Assembly (NCBI GenBank): GCA_018303125.1
Contig: JAGVYS010000005.1
Coordinates: forward strand, 1 to 46,201
Direction: 5' to 3'
From: Candidatus Woesearchaeota archaeon
Lineage (GTDB): Archaea > Nanobdellota > Nanobdellia > Woesearchaeales > WJIZ01
DNA length: 46,201 bases
The notes under the pieces were generated by a model that saw only the letters and a program-made list of their open reading frames with translations, was not told the DNA's origin and did not search any database. This document shows, piece after piece, positions 10,009 to 17,822 of the stretch. How positions within the stretch are numbered: position 1 is the stretch's first letter; every line of letters begins with the position of its first letter. The position numbers were made by a program, and so were the translations under genes.

Positions 10009-11256
10009 TTAACAATCTCTTCCAACCCTTAGCAAGGCAGCCTTCCTGTGGGCATCCAATCCTTCCTGCTCAGCCAGCCTTGAGGCTACCTTAACCATGC
10101 TGGCAGGAACTTTTCCATCAATCTTCTGGTACGTAACAATCTTGACAAAATCCCTGACAGATAACCCGCCAGTATACCTTGCAGCTCCGTTCGTAGGCAG
10201 GATGTGGTTTGTTCCGGTGCAATAGTCTCCGAAGACCTCTGCAGCATTATCTCCTATGAATAGTGAGCCATAATTTTTCAGCATAAGCCTCTCTGGATTT
10301 TTGACATGCAGCTCAAGGTGCTCAGGCGATTTCATGTCTGATATCTTAGCGCAGTCCTCAAGGCTCTGTGCTATTATGATTCTCCCGTTTTGCAGGGCTG
10401 CAGCTGCAATATCCCTTGTCTTAAGCTTCTGAAGCTGCATTTCCAGCTGATTTTGAACTTCAATTGCCAATTTTCTTGAGGTAGTCACTAAATTTGGCTG
10501 TGCCGACTTGTCATGCTCTGCCTGAGCAAGCAGGTCAGCAGCTATAAGCTCAGCCTTGCCCGTTTCATCTGCTATAATCAAAACCTCGCTTGGCCCCGCT
10601 ATGAAATCTATTCCAACCCTGCCATAAACTTCCTTCTTGGCTGCTGCAACATACTTGTTTCCGGGCCCGACTATCTTGTCAACTTTAGGTACTGATTCCG
10701 TACCGTATGCCATTGCGCCTATTGCCTGCGCTCCGCCAATATTGAATATCATATCCGCTCCCGCAATATCTGCAGCAGCAACTGTTGCAGGCTTTATCCT
10801 TGGTGAGCATACAATAATCTCTTCAACTCCTGCAATCTTGGCGGGAATTATGCTCATTAGAGCTGATGACGGCAATGGATATATACCTCCAGGCACATAG
10901 CACCCTACTCTGATCAATGGAATCACCTTCTGTCCCAAAATAACACCCTTATTGACCAAAGAAAAATCCTTTATCTGGCTCATCTGCTTCCTAGCGAAGA
11001 ATTCAATGCTTTTGGCAGCTTCTCGTAGGGCAGACAATGTTTCAGAATCAACTTTTTCGTATGCTGCGTTTATGTCTTTTCCTGTGAGCTTGAAAGGAGC
11101 AGTACCTATGTCATCGAATTTTTGAGAGTATTTCCTCAATGCGCTCTCTCCATATTTCCTTATATCAGCAAGAATCTCCCTTGCTATTTCTCCCTCATCC
11201 CCCTGCCTTGGCTCGAAAAATTCCCTGTCCAATTTATCAGCATTAACAATTATCAT
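10009..11256 (-). CDS. hisD: Histidinol dehydrogenase
   Basis: GCYVPGGIYPLPSSALMSIIPAKIAGV, VGPGNKYVAAAKKEVYG, IDFIAGPSEVLIIAD, HILPTNGAARYTGGLSV. Confidence 0.97.
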   Translation of the reverse strand: MIIVNADKLDREFFEPRQGDEGEIAREILADIRKYGESALRKYSQKFDDIGTAPFKLTGKDINAAYEKVDSETLSALREAAKSIEFFARKQMSQIKDFSLVNKGVILGQKVIPLIRVGCYVPGGIYPLPSSALMSIIPAKIAGVEEIIVCSPRIKPATVAAADIAGADMIFNIGGAQAIGAMAYGTESVPKVDKIVGPGNKYVAAAKKEVYGRVGIDFIAGPSEVLIIADETGKAELIAADLLAQAEHDKSAQPNLVTTSRKLAIEVQNQLEMQLQKLKTRDIAAAALQNGRIIIAQSLEDCAKISDMKSPEHLELHVKNPERLMLKNYGSLFIGDNAAEVFGDYCTGTNHILPTNGAARYTGGLSVRDFVKIVTYQKIDGKVPASMVKVASRLAEQEGLDAHRKAALLRVGRDC

Positions 11257-12476
11257 TTTCTCCTTCCTCCGAGCTCATTCTTTATATCGTCCAAGGTTAT
11301 TCCTTTCTTTGCCATAAGGACAAGGATAAAATAAGCAAGGTCAGCTATTTCCCAGACAAGATTGTCCTTGTCTTTGTAATTTATAACTTCCATTGCCTCT
11401 TCCTTAATCTTGGCTTTTACAAGTTCCTCATCCTTTGCTATCAATGAGGTATAAGAGCCTCTTCTTGGATTCTTAATCCTGCCTGCTATAACGCTATACA
11501 ACTCTTCCATGCTGAAATCCCTTTCCCCAAAGCATGAATATTTTCCGGTGTGGCATGCAAAGTTTTTCTGGCTGACAGTGAACAGCAATACATCCCTGTC
11601 GCAGTCATACCTTGCCTTTTTCAGCACTTGGAAATTTCCTGATGTCTCACCCTTTACCCATATTTTCTTCCTGGACCTGCTATAGTAGGTTCCTTTTCCT
11701 GATTCAAGCGCCATGAGCAAAGATTTAGGATTGGAATAAGCAAGCATCATTACCTGACCGTTCTCTTCCTGCACTATGGTCGGAACAAGCCCATTGCTTT
11801 TCTTGAAATTAATCAATGAGACAAATGCTTTTCCCAGCTCAATCCTGCCTGTATAAAGCGCCATGCCAATCTGTGAATCACAGCCTAAATCCTCAAGCTG
11901 GGTTATATCATCAATTGTTGTTATCCCTCCTGCGACAGTCAGGTTTTTCTTCGTTGCCTTTCTTATTTTTTCAATTATGCCGAAATCAAGACCTTCCATC
12001 ATGCCTTCCTTGTTTACATTTGTGAATAAAAATCCTGAGCAATACCTCTCAAGCTCCTTTATTGCCTCAAAAGGTGTCTTCTTCGTTTTTTTAGTCCATC
12101 CTTCAGTTACCACATTGTCATCTTTACTGTCAATAGCAACAATTACCTTGCCGGCAGGAAGCTTCTTCAGGAATTCCGGAGAGGCTTTTGTACCTATGAT
12201 TATTTTTTTGGCGCCATATTTCAAAATCTCTTCTGCCTTATCTTGGCTCCTTATCCCACCTCCGACTCTGCAGTCTGCAATCTTGCATATTTCCTTTATT
12301 AGTCCAGAATTATTTCCCTTGCCTAAAGCTGCATCTAAGTCAATGACAGCAATTTCCCCATACCTGGAAAACTCCCTGGCAAACTGCATGACATTGCTGC
12401 GCTCAAGTACCTTTTCCCTTCCTTGCCTAAGCTGCACAGCCTTTCCATCCATTAGGTCAATGCTCGGTATTATCAT
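11253..12476 (-). CDS. hisA-hisIE: HisA-HisI-HisE three-domain fusion (ProFAR isomerase + PRA-CH + PRA-PH)
   Basis: Residues ~1-228 HisA ([33 protein letters not shown]). ~229-325 HisI ([50 protein letters not shown]). ~326-407 HisE ([39 protein letters not shown]). Confidence 0.95.
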
Positions 12477-13225
12477 TTTCTTACCTCAATTCCTTTTTTC
12501 CCAAGATATTCCTTTACGTTGAGTATAGAGTATGTGCTATAATGGAATATTGACGCTGCCAGTGCAGCATCTGCTTTTCCTTTTATGAAAACATCTGCAA
12601 AGCTTTCTAAATTACCCGCTCCGCCGGAAGCAATGACAGGTATACTGACATTCTCCGAGATTATCTGCGTAAGCTCAAGCTCATAGCCTTCTTTTGTCCC
12701 ATCTCTGTCCATGGATGTCAACAAGAGTTCCCCTGCACCGAGCTTCTCTGCTTCCTTAGCCCATTCAAGTGCGGAAATGCCTGTTGGCTCCTTTCCACTC
12801 TTTATGAAAACCTCATATCTCCCGTTTATTTTTTTGGCATCTATTGCAACTGTTATGCATTGGCTGCCAAATTTTTCAGAGGCTTCCCTCAAAAGGCTTG
12901 GATTTTTCACAGCAGCTGTGTTTATTGAAACCTTGTCTGCGCCTGCTATAAGCAAATTTCTTATGTCATCAATGGAGCTTATTCCCCCGCCTACTGTAAA
13001 AGGGATGAATATTTCCTTTGCAACCTCTTTTACAAGCGATGTGGTTTTCCTTTTTTCAGATGATGCAGTTATGTCAAGGAAAACAAGCTCATCGGCACCT
13101 TCCTCATTGTATCTCTTGGCTAATTCTACGGCATCGCCTGCCTGCTTAAGATCTAAAAAGTTCCTTCCTTTCACTACCTTCCCTTCCTTAACATCAAGGC
13201 AAGGTATTATCCTTTTAGTAAGCAT
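12473..13225 (-). CDS. hisF: Imidazole glycerol phosphate synthase cyclase subunit
   Basis: [69 protein letters not shown]. Confidence 0.97.
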
Positions 13226-13799
13226 CAAGCCACCTCTGCAGCAGCGCAATGCCTGAACTACCACTTTTTTCAGGGTGGAATTGCACAGCTGTAACATTCT
13301 TATCCTGGATTGCGCATGCAAATTCTCCATAATAATCCGTGACTGCAGCTATTATGCCTTTTTGCCCTGGTTTTACATAATATGAATTGACGAAATAAAA
13401 AAAATCCTCCTCAAAAATTCCTTTTTTTGCAGGCGTTATGCTATTCCATCCTATCTGAGGCACTTTTCCTTTCCTGAACCTTACTGACTTGCCATTGTAT
13501 ATCCCGAGCCCTTTTACTCCGACACTTTCATCGCTTTCCTCAAAGAGCGCCTGCATGCCCAGGCATATTCCAAGGAAAGGCTTTCCAGAGGCAATTGAAT
13601 TCCTAATCGGCTCTGCAATGCCTTTCTCCCTCAGGTTCTGCATCATGAATCCAAATGCTCCTACTCCAGGTAGTACTATTCTTTCTGCATCAAGTATTGC
13701 ATCCGGGGTGCCAACTATCATAGACTCTGCTTTAAGGTAATCAAAAGCGTTCTTTACGCTGCTTAGGTTTCCTATTCCGCAATCCACTATGGCTATCAT
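13215..13799 (-). CDS. hisH: Imidazole glycerol phosphate synthase glutaminase subunit
   Basis: [40 protein letters not shown]. Confidence 0.96.
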
Positions 13800-14383
13800 A
13801 TCATTCCTTTTGTGCTTGGCACATCCTCCATTGCCCTCTTATCAGTTGAGCATGCCATCTTGGCTGCCTTCCCGAATGCCTTGAATATTGCCTCTATCTT
13901 GTGGTGGTCGCTTCTGCCATATAGCATCCTGACAACAACATTTGCCCCTAGGCCTATGGAAAATCCATAGAAAAAATCCTCAAGAACATCAGTGTCGAAA
14001 TCGCCGCAATATCTTCTGCCAAATTTTGCATCGTACTGTAGGTATGGCCTGCCGCCTATGTCTAGGGCTACAACTGCCAAAGACTCATCCATCGGGTAAA
14101 TAAAATATCCTGTCCTGTTTATCCCTTTCTTGTCTCCAAGCGCTTTCCCGAGTGCCTGGCCCAATACAATCCCTGTATCCTCTATAGTGTGATGCTGGTC
14201 GACTTTTAAATCTCCTCTCACTTTGATTTCAGTGTCAAACAATGAAAATTTTGAGAAGCTTTCAAGCATGTGCGAGAAAAATCCTATCTCAGTATCAACA
14301 GAGTATTTTCCCTTGCCATCAATATTAAGCTCAACGCTTATTCTTGTTTCTTTAGTTTCCCTGCTTATTTTGGCTTTCCTCAT
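13796..14383 (-). CDS. hisB: Imidazoleglycerol-phosphate dehydratase
   Basis: GFFSHMLESFSKFSLFD, DQHHTIEDTGIVLGQAL, GRSDHHKIEAIFKAFGKA. Confidence 0.97.
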   Translation of the reverse strand: MRKAKISRETKETRISVELNIDGKGKYSVDTEIGFFSHMLESFSKFSLFDTEIKVRGDLKVDQHHTIEDTGIVLGQALGKALGDKKGINRTGYFIYPMDESLAVVALDIGGRPYLQYDAKFGRRYCGDFDTDVLEDFFYGFSIGLGANVVVRMLYGRSDHHKIEAIFKAFGKAAKMACSTDKRAMEDVPSTKGMI

Positions 14384-16698
14384 TTTAGCACCTCTGGTAT
14401 CTGGTTTATATCAGAAATAACCTTTATTGCACCGTTCTTGACAAGCAATTCTTTTAGAGATTTGGAATTTGTGTCTGAAGGAATTACTCCTATGGCCTTT
14501 ATCCCTGCACTCTTCGCAGCCTTCATGTCATCAACACTGTCCCCAATATAAACAGCATTGCTCCTGCCAATTCTATCCAGTGCCATGCTTATGCTGCATG
14601 GGTCTGGCTTTGATTTATTTTCAGGATAATCTTCCATCGCTATTATTGTATCAAAGTACTGCTCCATGCCAAATTTCTCAAGTATATATCGGGCCTCCTC
14701 TCTTGGCCTACCTGTAACTATGCCAAGTCTTGCTTCCTTATATAAGCTTTCAAGAACTTCTTTTGTCAGCAAGAATCTCTCATTATCTATAAGCCCCTTG
14801 TCTTCATTATCTCCCAGATAGAACTCCTGGAACTTCCTGATTATATCATCCTTGCTGCATTTGACATTCCTCTTGAGGATTACTGCTTCCGTAAGGTCCC
14901 AGTCATTATTGTAGCCACCTTTTTCCTTGAACTCCTGTATCTCTTCACGGCTTATCTCTACATTCGCAAAAAATTTGGCAGTCCTTTGTATGGCTGTCCT
15001 GTAGGAATTGCTGACATCTACCAAAACACCGTCCATATCGAACAATACCACATCCTCGGGAATTATATTCTTTATGGCTTCTATAAGCACCCTGGATTGT
15101 TCCATTGTCCCTATTCCTATCCTTATGCAATTCTTCAGCAATGGGTACGTTGACCTGTCCCTTACAAGTATGCCCCTCTCCCTGAGCTGCAGCAAAACAT
15201 AATTGCACCTCTCACCGAAATCTGCCATCATAAAATTGGCTTCGGAAGAAAATACCTTTATGCCGAGCTTTTCAAGCTCTTTCTGCACATACTGCCTGCT
15301 CTCCCTGACCTCTTCGACATAATTACTTATGAATTCCTCATCCTTCATTGCGGCGCTGGCCGCAATAAGCGCAAGGTTATTTACGCTATAAGGTGAGATG
15401 ACCTTTTCTAGATTGGTTATTATTGCCTCGCTTGATATTATGCATCCAAGTCTTAATCCTGCAAGGCCGAAAGCCTTTGAGAATGTCTGCGTAACTATTA
15501 GGTTGCTGTATTTCTCAACAAACCGCTTGCAGCTCTTTCCATAATACTGGCTATATGCCTCATCGACAAGCACTATTGCGTCCTTTGCCTTTTCCAGTAC
15601 AGATATAATGTCTTGCTCGCTTATGGTTGTGCCTGTAGGATTATTCGGGTTGACAAGAACAACAAGCTTCGTTTTATCAGTTATTTTTTCCAGCAATTTT
15701 TGAGTTGGAAAGCTCAGGTCATCATTATAAAGAACATTAGTAATGTTTGCCTCTACTATGTCTGCATAGACTTTGAACATTGTAAATGTGGGCTCAGGAA
15801 TTATTACTTCATCCCCTTTCTCGAGGAAAGTGTCCATGACAACCTTTATTGCTTCGTCCGTTCCATTTGTAGGCAATACATTCTTGCTCCCAGTATCCAA
15901 ATACAATGCAAGTTCCTTCCTGAAATTACCATAATCGGGGTACATGCAAATGTCCTCGACAGAAATATCCCTTAGTGCATCCAGCACTTTTGGTGAGCAT
16001 CCAGAGGTATTTTCATTAAAATCAAGGCGCAGCTTGCCTCTCCTGTCAGAGGTTGGCGGCTCGTACTTGCTCATTTTCTGCACTGCCTCCTTCGGCATTA
16101 TGGAATTTCCAGAAGAATCAGCGCCTATTACGAGGAAATCGCTCTGCATTATTACATCGTACGCTTTTAGATTATACTTTATTAGAGAGCTTCCTGTATA
16201 GACTATATCGATTATTAAGTCAGCTATTCCTTCGCTGCAGCTTGTCTCAACGCAACCATTGATGTAAATCTTCTTGAATGAGAAGCCTTTCCTCTCAAGG
16301 AAATTAAGGTATTTTTTGGCCAATTTCTTGTATTTGGAGGCTATGCACACTGTCAAATCTCTTGGCATTGTTTCAAGGCTTTTTCCTTCTGGCCCTATTA
16401 GGCAGAGTGTTGGCTTGCCATAGATGGCAGAAGGGTCATCCCACGCAATTCTCTTGATTACCTTAAGTTGAGATTCCTTGTTTTCGAGGCAGTATTCCCT
16501 GAACAAGTCTTCTCCAGTTAGGCCAAAGGCATTCTTGCCTTTATTGAGAAATTGCTTTACTAGGAATGGTATGTCCTCTCCCCTTGCTTCTATAAGCCTT
16601 GTGTCCTTTACATCCTTAAAATAAGATAATGCCGATTCCCTATAACTTCTTAGCCCGGAATTTTTTGGAACCAAGATGAATACAACCACCACTTTCAA
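14380..16698 (-). CDS. HisG-HisC-HAD three-domain fusion (ATP phosphoribosyltransferase + histidinol-phosphate aminotransferase + HAD phosphatase)
   Basis: Residues ~1-208 HisG-like (NGCVETSCSEGIADLIIDIVYTGSSLI). ~209-547 HisC (LRLDFNENTSG, NPNNPTGT, DEAYSQYYG, TQTFSKAFGLAGLRLG). ~548-772 HAD (LFDMDGVLVD, IVTGRPREEA, KSKPDP, YIGDSVDDMKAAKSAG). The listed first codon is TTG. Confidence 0.92.
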   Translation of the reverse strand: MKVVVVFILVPKNSGLRSYRESALSYFKDVKDTRLIEARGEDIPFLVKQFLNKGKNAFGLTGEDLFREYCLENKESQLKVIKRIAWDDPSAIYGKPTLCLIGPEGKSLETMPRDLTVCIASKYKKLAKKYLNFLERKGFSFKKIYINGCVETSCSEGIADLIIDIVYTGSSLIKYNLKAYDVIMQSDFLVIGADSSGNSIMPKEAVQKMSKYEPPTSDRRGKLRLDFNENTSGCSPKVLDALRDISVEDICMYPDYGNFRKELALYLDTGSKNVLPTNGTDEAIKVVMDTFLEKGDEVIIPEPTFTMFKVYADIVEANITNVLYNDDLSFPTQKLLEKITDKTKLVVLVNPNNPTGTTISEQDIISVLEKAKDAIVLVDEAYSQYYGKSCKRFVEKYSNLIVTQTFSKAFGLAGLRLGCIISSEAIITNLEKVISPYSVNNLALIAASAAMKDEEFISNYVEEVRESRQYVQKELEKLGIKVFSSEANFMMADFGERCNYVLLQLRERGILVRDRSTYPLLKNCIRIGIGTMEQSRVLIEAIKNIIPEDVVLFDMDGVLVDVSNSYRTAIQRTAKFFANVEISREEIQEFKEKGGYNNDWDLTEAVILKRNVKCSKDDIIRKFQEFYLGDNEDKGLIDNERFLLTKEVLESLYKEARLGIVTGRPREEARYILEKFGMEQYFDTIIAMEDYPENKSKPDPCSISMALDRIGRSNAVYIGDSVDDMKAAKSAGIKAIGVIPSDTNSKSLKELLVKNGAIKVISDINQIPEVLK

Positions 16699-16719
16699 TA
16701 ATTTTTTCCATCATAGGAC

Positions 16720-16729
16720 CTCTATAGAG
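16720..16729. promoter_or_regulatory. Perfect 10-bp palindrome CTCTATAGAG upstream of the hisG-C-HAD ORF
   Basis: Self-complementary CTCTATAGAG between the tRNA-His 3' end and the his operon start. Confidence 0.3.
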
Positions 16730-16743
16730 TTTATCTTGAAAAG

Positions 16744-16814
16744 AGAGATAGAGGGGAATTGAACCCCTGCCATAGGTGCCACAGACCTATATTCTGCCGT
16801 TAAACTACTATCTC
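16744..16814 (-). tRNA. tRNA-His(GTG)
   Basis: Cloverleaf read by hand on the minus strand: acceptor GAGATAG/CTATCTC, D-arm GTTTAACGGCAGAAT, anticodon stem TAGGT/ACCTA with loop CTGTGGC (anticodon GTG), T-arm AGGGG-TTCAATT-CCCCT. Discriminator T; genomic -1 base A. Confidence 0.95.
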
Positions 16815-16943
16815 TATCTGTGAGCCTGAAAAAATTATTAAATGATTTAAGAATAGTTCTACCTATAATGAATACAACCAGCGCTTACTACTGCCTTAGC
16901 CTCTGTGATAACTAATTTCATAGCATTATGGTAATGGTGAGGG

Positions 16944-17822
16944 TTATTTAAAGCTTTCTATGGCCTCAGCAAACAATCCGGCTACATCAATCTTCGCTGC
17001 AGGATTAGGTATGGAATTTGTGGTCACTACCTCTGCACCTGTTTTCTTCAGCTTTCCTAGAGCCCCTTCAGCAAAAATACCGTGAATTGCTATGCATGTT
17101 ACCTTTCTGACGCCAAGTGCCTTGAGCTTAATGATAGTTTTAATCAGCGTATTCCCTGTTGAAATCATGTCATCTATAAGCACTATATTCTTTCCCTTGG
17201 TGTCTACTTTTTCCTGGAACCTCACATCAACATTCCTGGCAGAATGCCTTGTCTTAAGTAAAATAGTGGATTCACATCCTATTATTTCTGCAGTTTTTCT
17301 TGCCCATTTATACGATTCCCAGTCAGGTCCTACTATAAGTGGCTTCTTGACATTTTTCCTTATATGTTCCCCTATCAATGGGTTTGCCGTTAGCCTTTTT
17401 GATTCAACTGAAAATATATGCCCCAGAGATTTCTCCCTGTGAAGATGCGGGTCAAGTATGCATACCCTGTCAACTATGTTATTCATTATCTTGCCGAGGA
17501 AATGGATTGAAGGTATTTCGCCTTTGCTGAACCATGTATCCTGCCTGAAATAAGGGAAATAAGGAGACAGCAAAGTAATTTCTGAGGCGCCCATCTCCTT
17601 CGCTGCCTTTGAGGCAAACATTACCTCTAAAAGGCAAGAGTCAATATCACCATAGAAAGACTGGACAAGATACACTTTCCTGCCCTTCAAGCCAGTCTTC
17701 AGAAATTTTATATGGAGCTCATTGTCGGGAAATTTCTCAACAAAAAGCTCAGAATATGGCATCTTTGCTTTGGCTGCTATTCTGCGCGCAATATGTTTTC
17801 CGTGTGAGCAGGATATAATCAT
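16944..17822 (-). CDS. prs: Ribose-phosphate pyrophosphokinase (PRPP synthetase)
   Basis: FPDNELHIKF, LSPYFPYFRQD, VCILDPHLH, KNIVLIDDMISTGNTLIKT (PRPP loop). Confidence 0.94.
   Translation of the reverse strand: MIISCSHGKHIARRIAAKAKMPYSELFVEKFPDNELHIKFLKTGLKGRKVYLVQSFYGDIDSCLLEVMFASKAAKEMGASEITLLSPYFPYFRQDTWFSKGEIPSIHFLGKIMNNIVDRVCILDPHLHREKSLGHIFSVESKRLTANPLIGEHIRKNVKKPLIVGPDWESYKWARKTAEIIGCESTILLKTRHSARNVDVRFQEKVDTKGKNIVLIDDMISTGNTLIKTIIKLKALGVRKVTCIAIHGIFAEGALGKLKKTGAEVVTTNSIPNPAAKIDVAGLFAEAIESFK

Follow-up and report, generated by a model that had tools for sequence, protein, structure and literature searches.

How is a gene that joins three steps of histidine synthesis in one polypeptide started, and could its start respond to histidine? 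The question is raised by a stretch of 46,201 nucleotides (contig JAGVYS010000005.1, hereafter the window) from a Candidatus Woesearchaeota archaeon of the order Woesearchaeales, in which a 772-aa open reading frame (ORF) on the minus strand (14380-16698, called start codon TTG) carries HisG, HisC and a phosphatase-like domain of the haloacid dehalogenase (HAD) type. The reading that we favour, with a probability of about two in three, is that production of this fused enzyme would be gated by a programmed +1 frameshift at a 'hungry' codon for histidine and that its HAD domain, of family TIGR01548, would act as the phosphatase of the pathway.

Two reading frames at hisG and at an upstream leader

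The first-pass annotation of this DNA had opened the ORF at TTG 16698, which is probably wrong, and had overlooked the change of frame where hisG begins, a leader peptide and a tRNA-His gene. Translation most likely starts at ATG 16714, in another frame. This codon follows a Shine-Dalgarno (SD)-like GAGGT and opens the frame MMEKIIESGGC-I-H-LGSKKFRAKKL*, relative to which the HisG frame is +1 from the His codon CAT on. The change can be placed after ATT, with the C of CAT skipped, so that ...GGC-I is followed by ILVPKNSGL. When peptides were inspected with no site assumed, 15 of 20 hisG genes proved to have an ORF that opens with ATG, is offset by the same +1 and gives a peptide ending on [GD]C[IL]H or a near match, and further genomes beyond these show it as well. 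Sites located by motif in 22 genomes have ATT or CTT as slip codon (11 each) and then CAT (16) or CAC (6), i.e. a His codon (CAY) at every site, a count that is in part circular, the motif having been a requirement of the search (the independent evidence is the inspection of peptides with no site assumed), and that includes one doubtful genome without a frame-0 ATG (G034), the other 21 coming from ten families.

A second copy of this cassette lies between prs and tRNA-His and starts at ATG 16921, some 31 nt after a TATA-like box, which suggests that the leader may be translated from a leaderless mRNA. Of the 29 leaders with the cassette that were collected, 19 have a TATA-like box 29-34 nt before the ATG, and in the whole set the +1 frame stays open for a median of 33 codons versus 11 in the +2 frame (26/29, Wilcoxon p = 6e-5). 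In 11 genomes, the window included, the +1 frame crosses tRNA-His. Its stop codon shares bases with the ATG of hisG in the window, G243 and G170 and falls within a few bases of it in G238 and G283; the frame merges with the frame-0 hisG start in G141 and G146. Elsewhere the +1 frame closes with His codons on one side or the other of the tRNA (HHHC*, HHQ*, HHR*, FHG*). In the window, tRNA-His lies 44 nt before the called ORF, and the order from tRNA-His to hisG is common to many relatives. Several genomes have ARAGORN calls of tRNA-Tyr upstream of hisG; their anticodon loop reads CTGTGG by eye, and they are apparently tRNA-His genes with an intron at 37/38. Five leaders ending in FHG* or IHG* (L025, L026, L030, L033, L216) run into a hairpin-like GGGTAGC...GCTATCC that overlaps the stop, and a racemase-like gene (GGMGPEATAEL) at L230 (G227) 312 likewise opens with the cassette, in the +1 frame.

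A proposed gate set by histidine supply, and its alternatives

Ribosomes would start at ATG 16714, read as far as ...GGC and come to stand with ATT in the P site and CAU next. Were charged tRNA-His plentiful, CAU would be decoded and translation would end 11 codons on, with no enzyme made; were it scarce, a pause at CAU would permit a +1 slip (AUU to UUC) and HisG-HisC-HAD would be produced. In the leader, a slip at low charged tRNA-His would carry ribosomes across tRNA-His and let them terminate at the ATG of hisG, so that the two switches would be coupled, and at high charged tRNA-His both CAU codons would be decoded and both short peptides would terminate. The fusion would thus place steps 1, 7 and 8 of histidine synthesis under one gate. 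The geometry of the frames is read directly from these sequences, from which we infer the slippage, its dependence on histidine and any effect on the processing or excision of tRNA-His. A wider proposal, of a two-step histidine sensor with two serial His-codon +1 sites, the first leading through an embedded and possibly only tRNA-His, such that charged tRNA-His would decide between tRNA and enzyme, is put forward tentatively and falls a little short of an even chance; if it is right, hungry-codon frameshifting would for the first time be known to control a natural operon.

Two other accounts keep the same codons and give them different roles. In one, HisG is started in its own frame, at TTG 16698 or a GTG, and the ATG ORF of frame 0 is a short, separate leader peptide, which overlaps the hisG start and regulates by ribosome stalling at its His codon. 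The window and most relatives do have TTG or GTG codons in the HisG frame, and control of such operons by leader peptides that contain codons for an amino acid is known. However, in G005, G322 and G140 this frame lacks ATG, GTG and TTG upstream of the conserved core, and the only such codon of G002 falls within the tRNA. SD sequences stand mostly before the frame-0 ATG (a match of at least 4 nt in 17 of 21 genomes), and a GTG start would be covered by a ribosome stalled at CAT. The N-termini speak against this account as well, since single-frame relatives carry the frame-0 N-terminus joined directly to HisG (DCIIVVPNN in G238, DCTVILPKN in G283) and align without gaps to the products of the shift; G238 is nested among shifting relatives in the tree, and its site differs as if one base had been lost. 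Moreover, five genomes of families f63 and f24 have a longer frame-0 N-terminus before the site, with RF[IV][AG]EGLGAPEA in four of them. A separate leader peptide therefore seems unlikely. A frameshift that is real but constitutive, setting a fixed low enzyme level with no histidine sensing, would be in keeping with the many programmed frameshifts that are unregulated and with an efficiency that is unpredictable from sequence, but the A-site codon is His at every site found, in a his operon and beside tRNA-His, and leaders elsewhere end in runs of His. Cassettes are, besides, found not only before hisG, the long hisG included, but also before hisI and, in G138, before tRNA-His and hisS. We regard this second account as less likely still.

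The statistics of the cassette favour a link to histidine, within limits. Across 842 kb of related DNA, His is the X of [GED]C[ILVFM]X in 43 of 94 short ORFs that have this motif and then an early stop, ATT or CTT preceding His in 41 of 43 cases and other residues in 9 of 51 (p = 2e-15); this excess is an association with his operons and not a genome-wide rate because the loci were gathered around his genes; the genomes compared are also related, and their counts are not independent. CAT is found at 16/22 and 22/29 shift sites versus 20% in the bodies of his genes (the GTG tRNA reads CAT by wobble), a bias that could come in part from the HisG frame. Several observations weigh against a histidine-dependent frameshift. 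The TTG and GTG codons of the window's HisG frame are usable as starts. Third positions do not dominate among frame-0 substitutions before the shift in the f10 and f62 pairs, nor in two of three comparable leader pairs. Re-pairing from AUU to UUC has a mismatch, CUU to UUC being better, and RNA structure is not unusual at either shift site (z = -1.3 and -0.3). Lastly, the internal SD-like element is weak: at the place of the prfB stimulator, 3 nt before the slip codon, GGTGAT- or GGTGG-like sequences are present in some genomes and absent in others.

Among known systems, the +1 autoregulation of prfB (release factor 2, CUU UGA) is the closest in kind. Shared with it are a short frame-0 start, a CUU-like slip codon, a conserved overlap at +1 offset in which a +1 shift would make the enzyme, and a slow A-site codon reporting on the gene product's own function. 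In prfB, however, the A-site codon is a stop, whereas in the cassette of the window it is a sense His codon (CAY at every site); the window case is also archaeal and in a biosynthetic operon, and the internal SD of prfB is only weakly matched. Hungry-codon frameshifting (Gallant; PMC5009743) likewise shifts at a codon whose aminoacyl-tRNA is scarce, but no example of its use to make starvation-specific proteins was known to the review of that subject (PMC5009743). Attenuation of the hisL type resembles the present case in having a leader peptide that reads His codons upstream of hisG and, in some relatives, His runs at the leader end, a few with hairpin-like sequence after the stop. It differs in that the window leader has one His codon, no His run and no unusual fold, and in that the proposed switch would be a reading frame and not a terminator. 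For archaea, a review lists one cellular case of -1 programmed frameshifting (fucA1) and a suggestion of frameshifting for magnesium chelatase (PMC8211752). If the histidine-gated frameshift is true, a histidine shortage would itself turn on histidine synthesis, and the hungry-codon gap in the open-access literature would be closed by a conserved sensor of histidine supply only a few dozen bases long.

The fused chain and its candidate phosphatase

The first-pass annotation had described HisG, HisC and HAD in one chain from motifs, and profile searches bear this out, each domain scoring above curated cut-offs. In the 772-aa ORF, Pfam finds HisG (PF01634, residues 47-198, E = 4e-22), Aminotran_1_2 (residues 222-542, E = 2e-61) and HAD_2 (residues 551-738, E = 4e-27), all above the gathering cut-off, the first of these settling the relationship to HisG proposed for the N-terminal part. 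With NCBIfam, the hisC equivalog TIGR01141 scores 318.6 bits (cut-off 276.6) and TIGR01548 scores 150.6 bits (cut-off 140.2). The catalytic motifs said to be complete in HisC and HAD are indeed all present: NPNNPTG and TFSKAFGLAGLR in HisC, and the four HAD motifs (DMDGVLVD, TGRP, K-PDP, GDSVDD); HisG retains TGEDLF and DIVYTGSSL, and its phosphoribosyl pyrophosphate (PRPP)-site motif is conserved. AlphaFold, run with an alignment of 26 related sequences, gives three confident folds (mean predicted local distance difference test score 86.5) and a weak linker at about residues 195-230, between HisG and HisC. The three activities would be those of the corresponding families.

HisG is of the short form (HisG_S), with the PF01634 core present. 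Both the regulatory C-terminal domain and HisZ had been thought missing, and in the window's own genome (labelled G000, ~95% complete) the HisG_C domain PF08029 was not found, and the sole gene found that resembles histidyl-tRNA synthetase scores above the cut-off as hisS (TIGR00442) and below it as hisZ (TIGR00443). HisS might stand in for HisZ.

Among 353 genomes of the order that were searched, HisG-HisC-HAD occurs in one frame in one other, G243, which belongs to another family; its protein of 778 aa has the same Pfam content and 58% identity to that of the window. A tree of the HisG, HisC and HAD domains groups G000 with G243 as sisters (99% bootstrap), and a tree of the other operon genes does so weakly (39%). 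A single origin of the HisG-HisC join is likely. That the ORF is a sequencing or assembly artefact, as the separate hisG frame of most relatives might lead one to suspect, is extremely improbable because G243 has the same ORF, with no Met before HisC at the junction. The first-pass annotation had considered that close relatives might encode these domains as separate genes. This holds for hisG, which most of them keep separate (overlapping or abutting) and which only G000 and G243 join to HisC, but not for HisC-HAD, a widespread fusion found as one protein beside a separate, mostly overlapping or abutting hisG in about fifteen other genomes of the order, as well as in Gastranaerophilales, Aminicenantes, Myxococcota, Planctomycetes, Gemmatimonadota and Roizmanbacteria. 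Unfused hisC-HAD-hisB neighbours occur in KSB1, Acidobacteria and Gottesmanbacteria. These bacterial sequences were matched by an alignment search with the HAD domain; a whole-protein search of genome contigs found no relatives. As candidates for a bacterial HisG-HisC-HAD, six long N-terminal extensions were checked by Pfam and none has HisG; they are probably open frames in GC-rich DNA.

Known fusions such as hisNB, hisIE, HIS4 and HIS7 (PMC1963479) similarly join his enzymes in one chain, and hisNB, much as is proposed for the window, joins the histidinol-phosphate phosphatase to another of them, but that 2007 survey has neither HisG nor HisC as part of a fusion and gives only hisIE for archaea. 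A 2024 survey of archaea reports HisIE and HisA/F-HisIE fusions, mentions none of HisG or HisC and found none of the HisB phosphatase (PMC11237513). HisG-HisC-HAD is thus a type of his fusion absent from both surveys.

The role of histidinol-phosphate phosphatase that had been suggested for the HAD domain is well supported, as a candidate role, by gene context and by genetics in Haloferax. In archaea and several bacterial phyla, the TIGR01548 HAD is found between hisC and hisB or fused to HisC. Among fourteen control genomes, Haloferax volcanii and Synechococcus elongatus have matches, and the gene is present in 15 of 15 Haloferax genomes searched. In the one Haloferax genome whose gene order was read, it is followed by DUF7534 and an F420-dependent oxidoreductase, which in H. 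volcanii is HVO_0433 npdG (PMC8305020); lying two genes from npdG, the HAD is therefore HVO_0431. Under this gene name, two identical transposon mutants are reported to require histidine (PMC4300041), and a 2021 review proposed the gene for the missing phosphatase (PMC8305020). The window HAD belongs to the same family as this protein linked to histidine prototrophy, which in Haloferax stands alone, whereas in the window it is fused to HisC and HisG. A point against this evidence is that the insertion coordinate given for HVO_0431 in Table 5 of PMC4300041 (1,198,248) lies 5 bp from that of HVO_1312 and misfits the HVO_0431 region; either the gene or the coordinate may have been misprinted.

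Alternatively, the HAD could act as a phosphatase on some other substrate and be in the operon for a different reason, HAD phosphatases being promiscuous, the nearest solved structures being generic HADs (the closest, 6iah, bears the record title 'Hydrolase' and shares a DV..SY signature with the domain) and G000 having an inositol monophosphatase (IMPase)-type gene. This is nevertheless quite improbable in view of its being fused to hisC or next to it in archaea and several bacterial phyla, and of the His auxotrophs reported for HVO_0431. In addition, no PHP gene was found in G000, and IMPase-type genes are absent from several relatives. Taking the HAD as the histidinol-phosphate phosphatase, the HisC-HAD fusions and HVO_0431 would point to TIGR01548 as a missing phosphatase family in archaea, several bacterial phyla and possibly cyanobacteria. 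In GapMind, HisN is the commonest low-confidence step of amino-acid pathways, at 28% of 148 prokaryotes, and is listed as a gap in S. elongatus (PMC7311316), where the TIGR01548 protein is a candidate HisN.

The operon and its features

The his operon of the window is complete on the minus strand, with hisG-hisC-HAD first, then hisB, hisH, hisF, hisA-hisIE and hisD, and prs upstream (Table 1).

Table 1. Features of the his locus, in window coordinates
Feature	Position	Strand	Evidence
Whole gene as reinterpreted: ATG 16714, putative +1 shift at ATT-CAT, 777-aa product MMEKIIESGGCI-ILVPKNSGL...	14380..16714	-	sequence comparison
HisG (short-form ATP phosphoribosyltransferase) domain	16120..16698	-	PF01634, PDB relatives, alignment
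HisC (histidinol-phosphate aminotransferase) domain	15064..16101	-	TIGR01141 above cut-off; top PDB matches are HisC
HAD domain TIGR01548, candidate histidinol-phosphate phosphatase	14383..15054	-	TIGR01548 score, motifs, gene context
Frame-0 reading of hisG start, MMEKIIESGGCIHLGSKKFRAKKL* (if His codon decoded)	16640..16714	-	
Putative shift site 2: slip codon ATT 16681-16679, His codon CAT 16678-16676; HisG frame resumes at 16677	16676..16681	-	
SD-like GAGGT before ATG 16714	16718..16722	-	
Leader ORF, MKLVITEAKAVVSAGCIHYR*	16859..16921	-	
Putative shift site 1: ATT, then His codon CAT	16868..16873	-	
+1 continuation of leader: 52 open codons through tRNA-His, stop TGA overlapping hisG ATG	16711..16869	-	
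TATA-like TTTAAATA, ~31 nt before leader ATG	16945..16952	-	
tRNA-His (GTG)	16743..16814	-	only copy found by DNA search in G000
hisB (imidazoleglycerol-phosphate dehydratase)	13796..14383	-	domain search
hisH	13215..13799	-	glutamine amidotransferase (GATase) domain and operon position conserved in relatives
hisF (true start probably inside ORF)	12473..13330	-	domain search
hisA-hisIE fusion	11253..12476	-	Pfam and NCBIfam
hisD	10009..11256	-	domain search
prs (PRPP synthetase), upstream neighbour	16944..17822	-	domain search

Fusions of HisA/F with HisIE similar to the HisA-HisIE of the window have been described in four archaeal metagenome assemblies (PMC11237513). In two loci, L181 (G170) and L178 (G236), hisS lies directly 3' of hisD, a clustering of tRNA-charging and synthesis genes.

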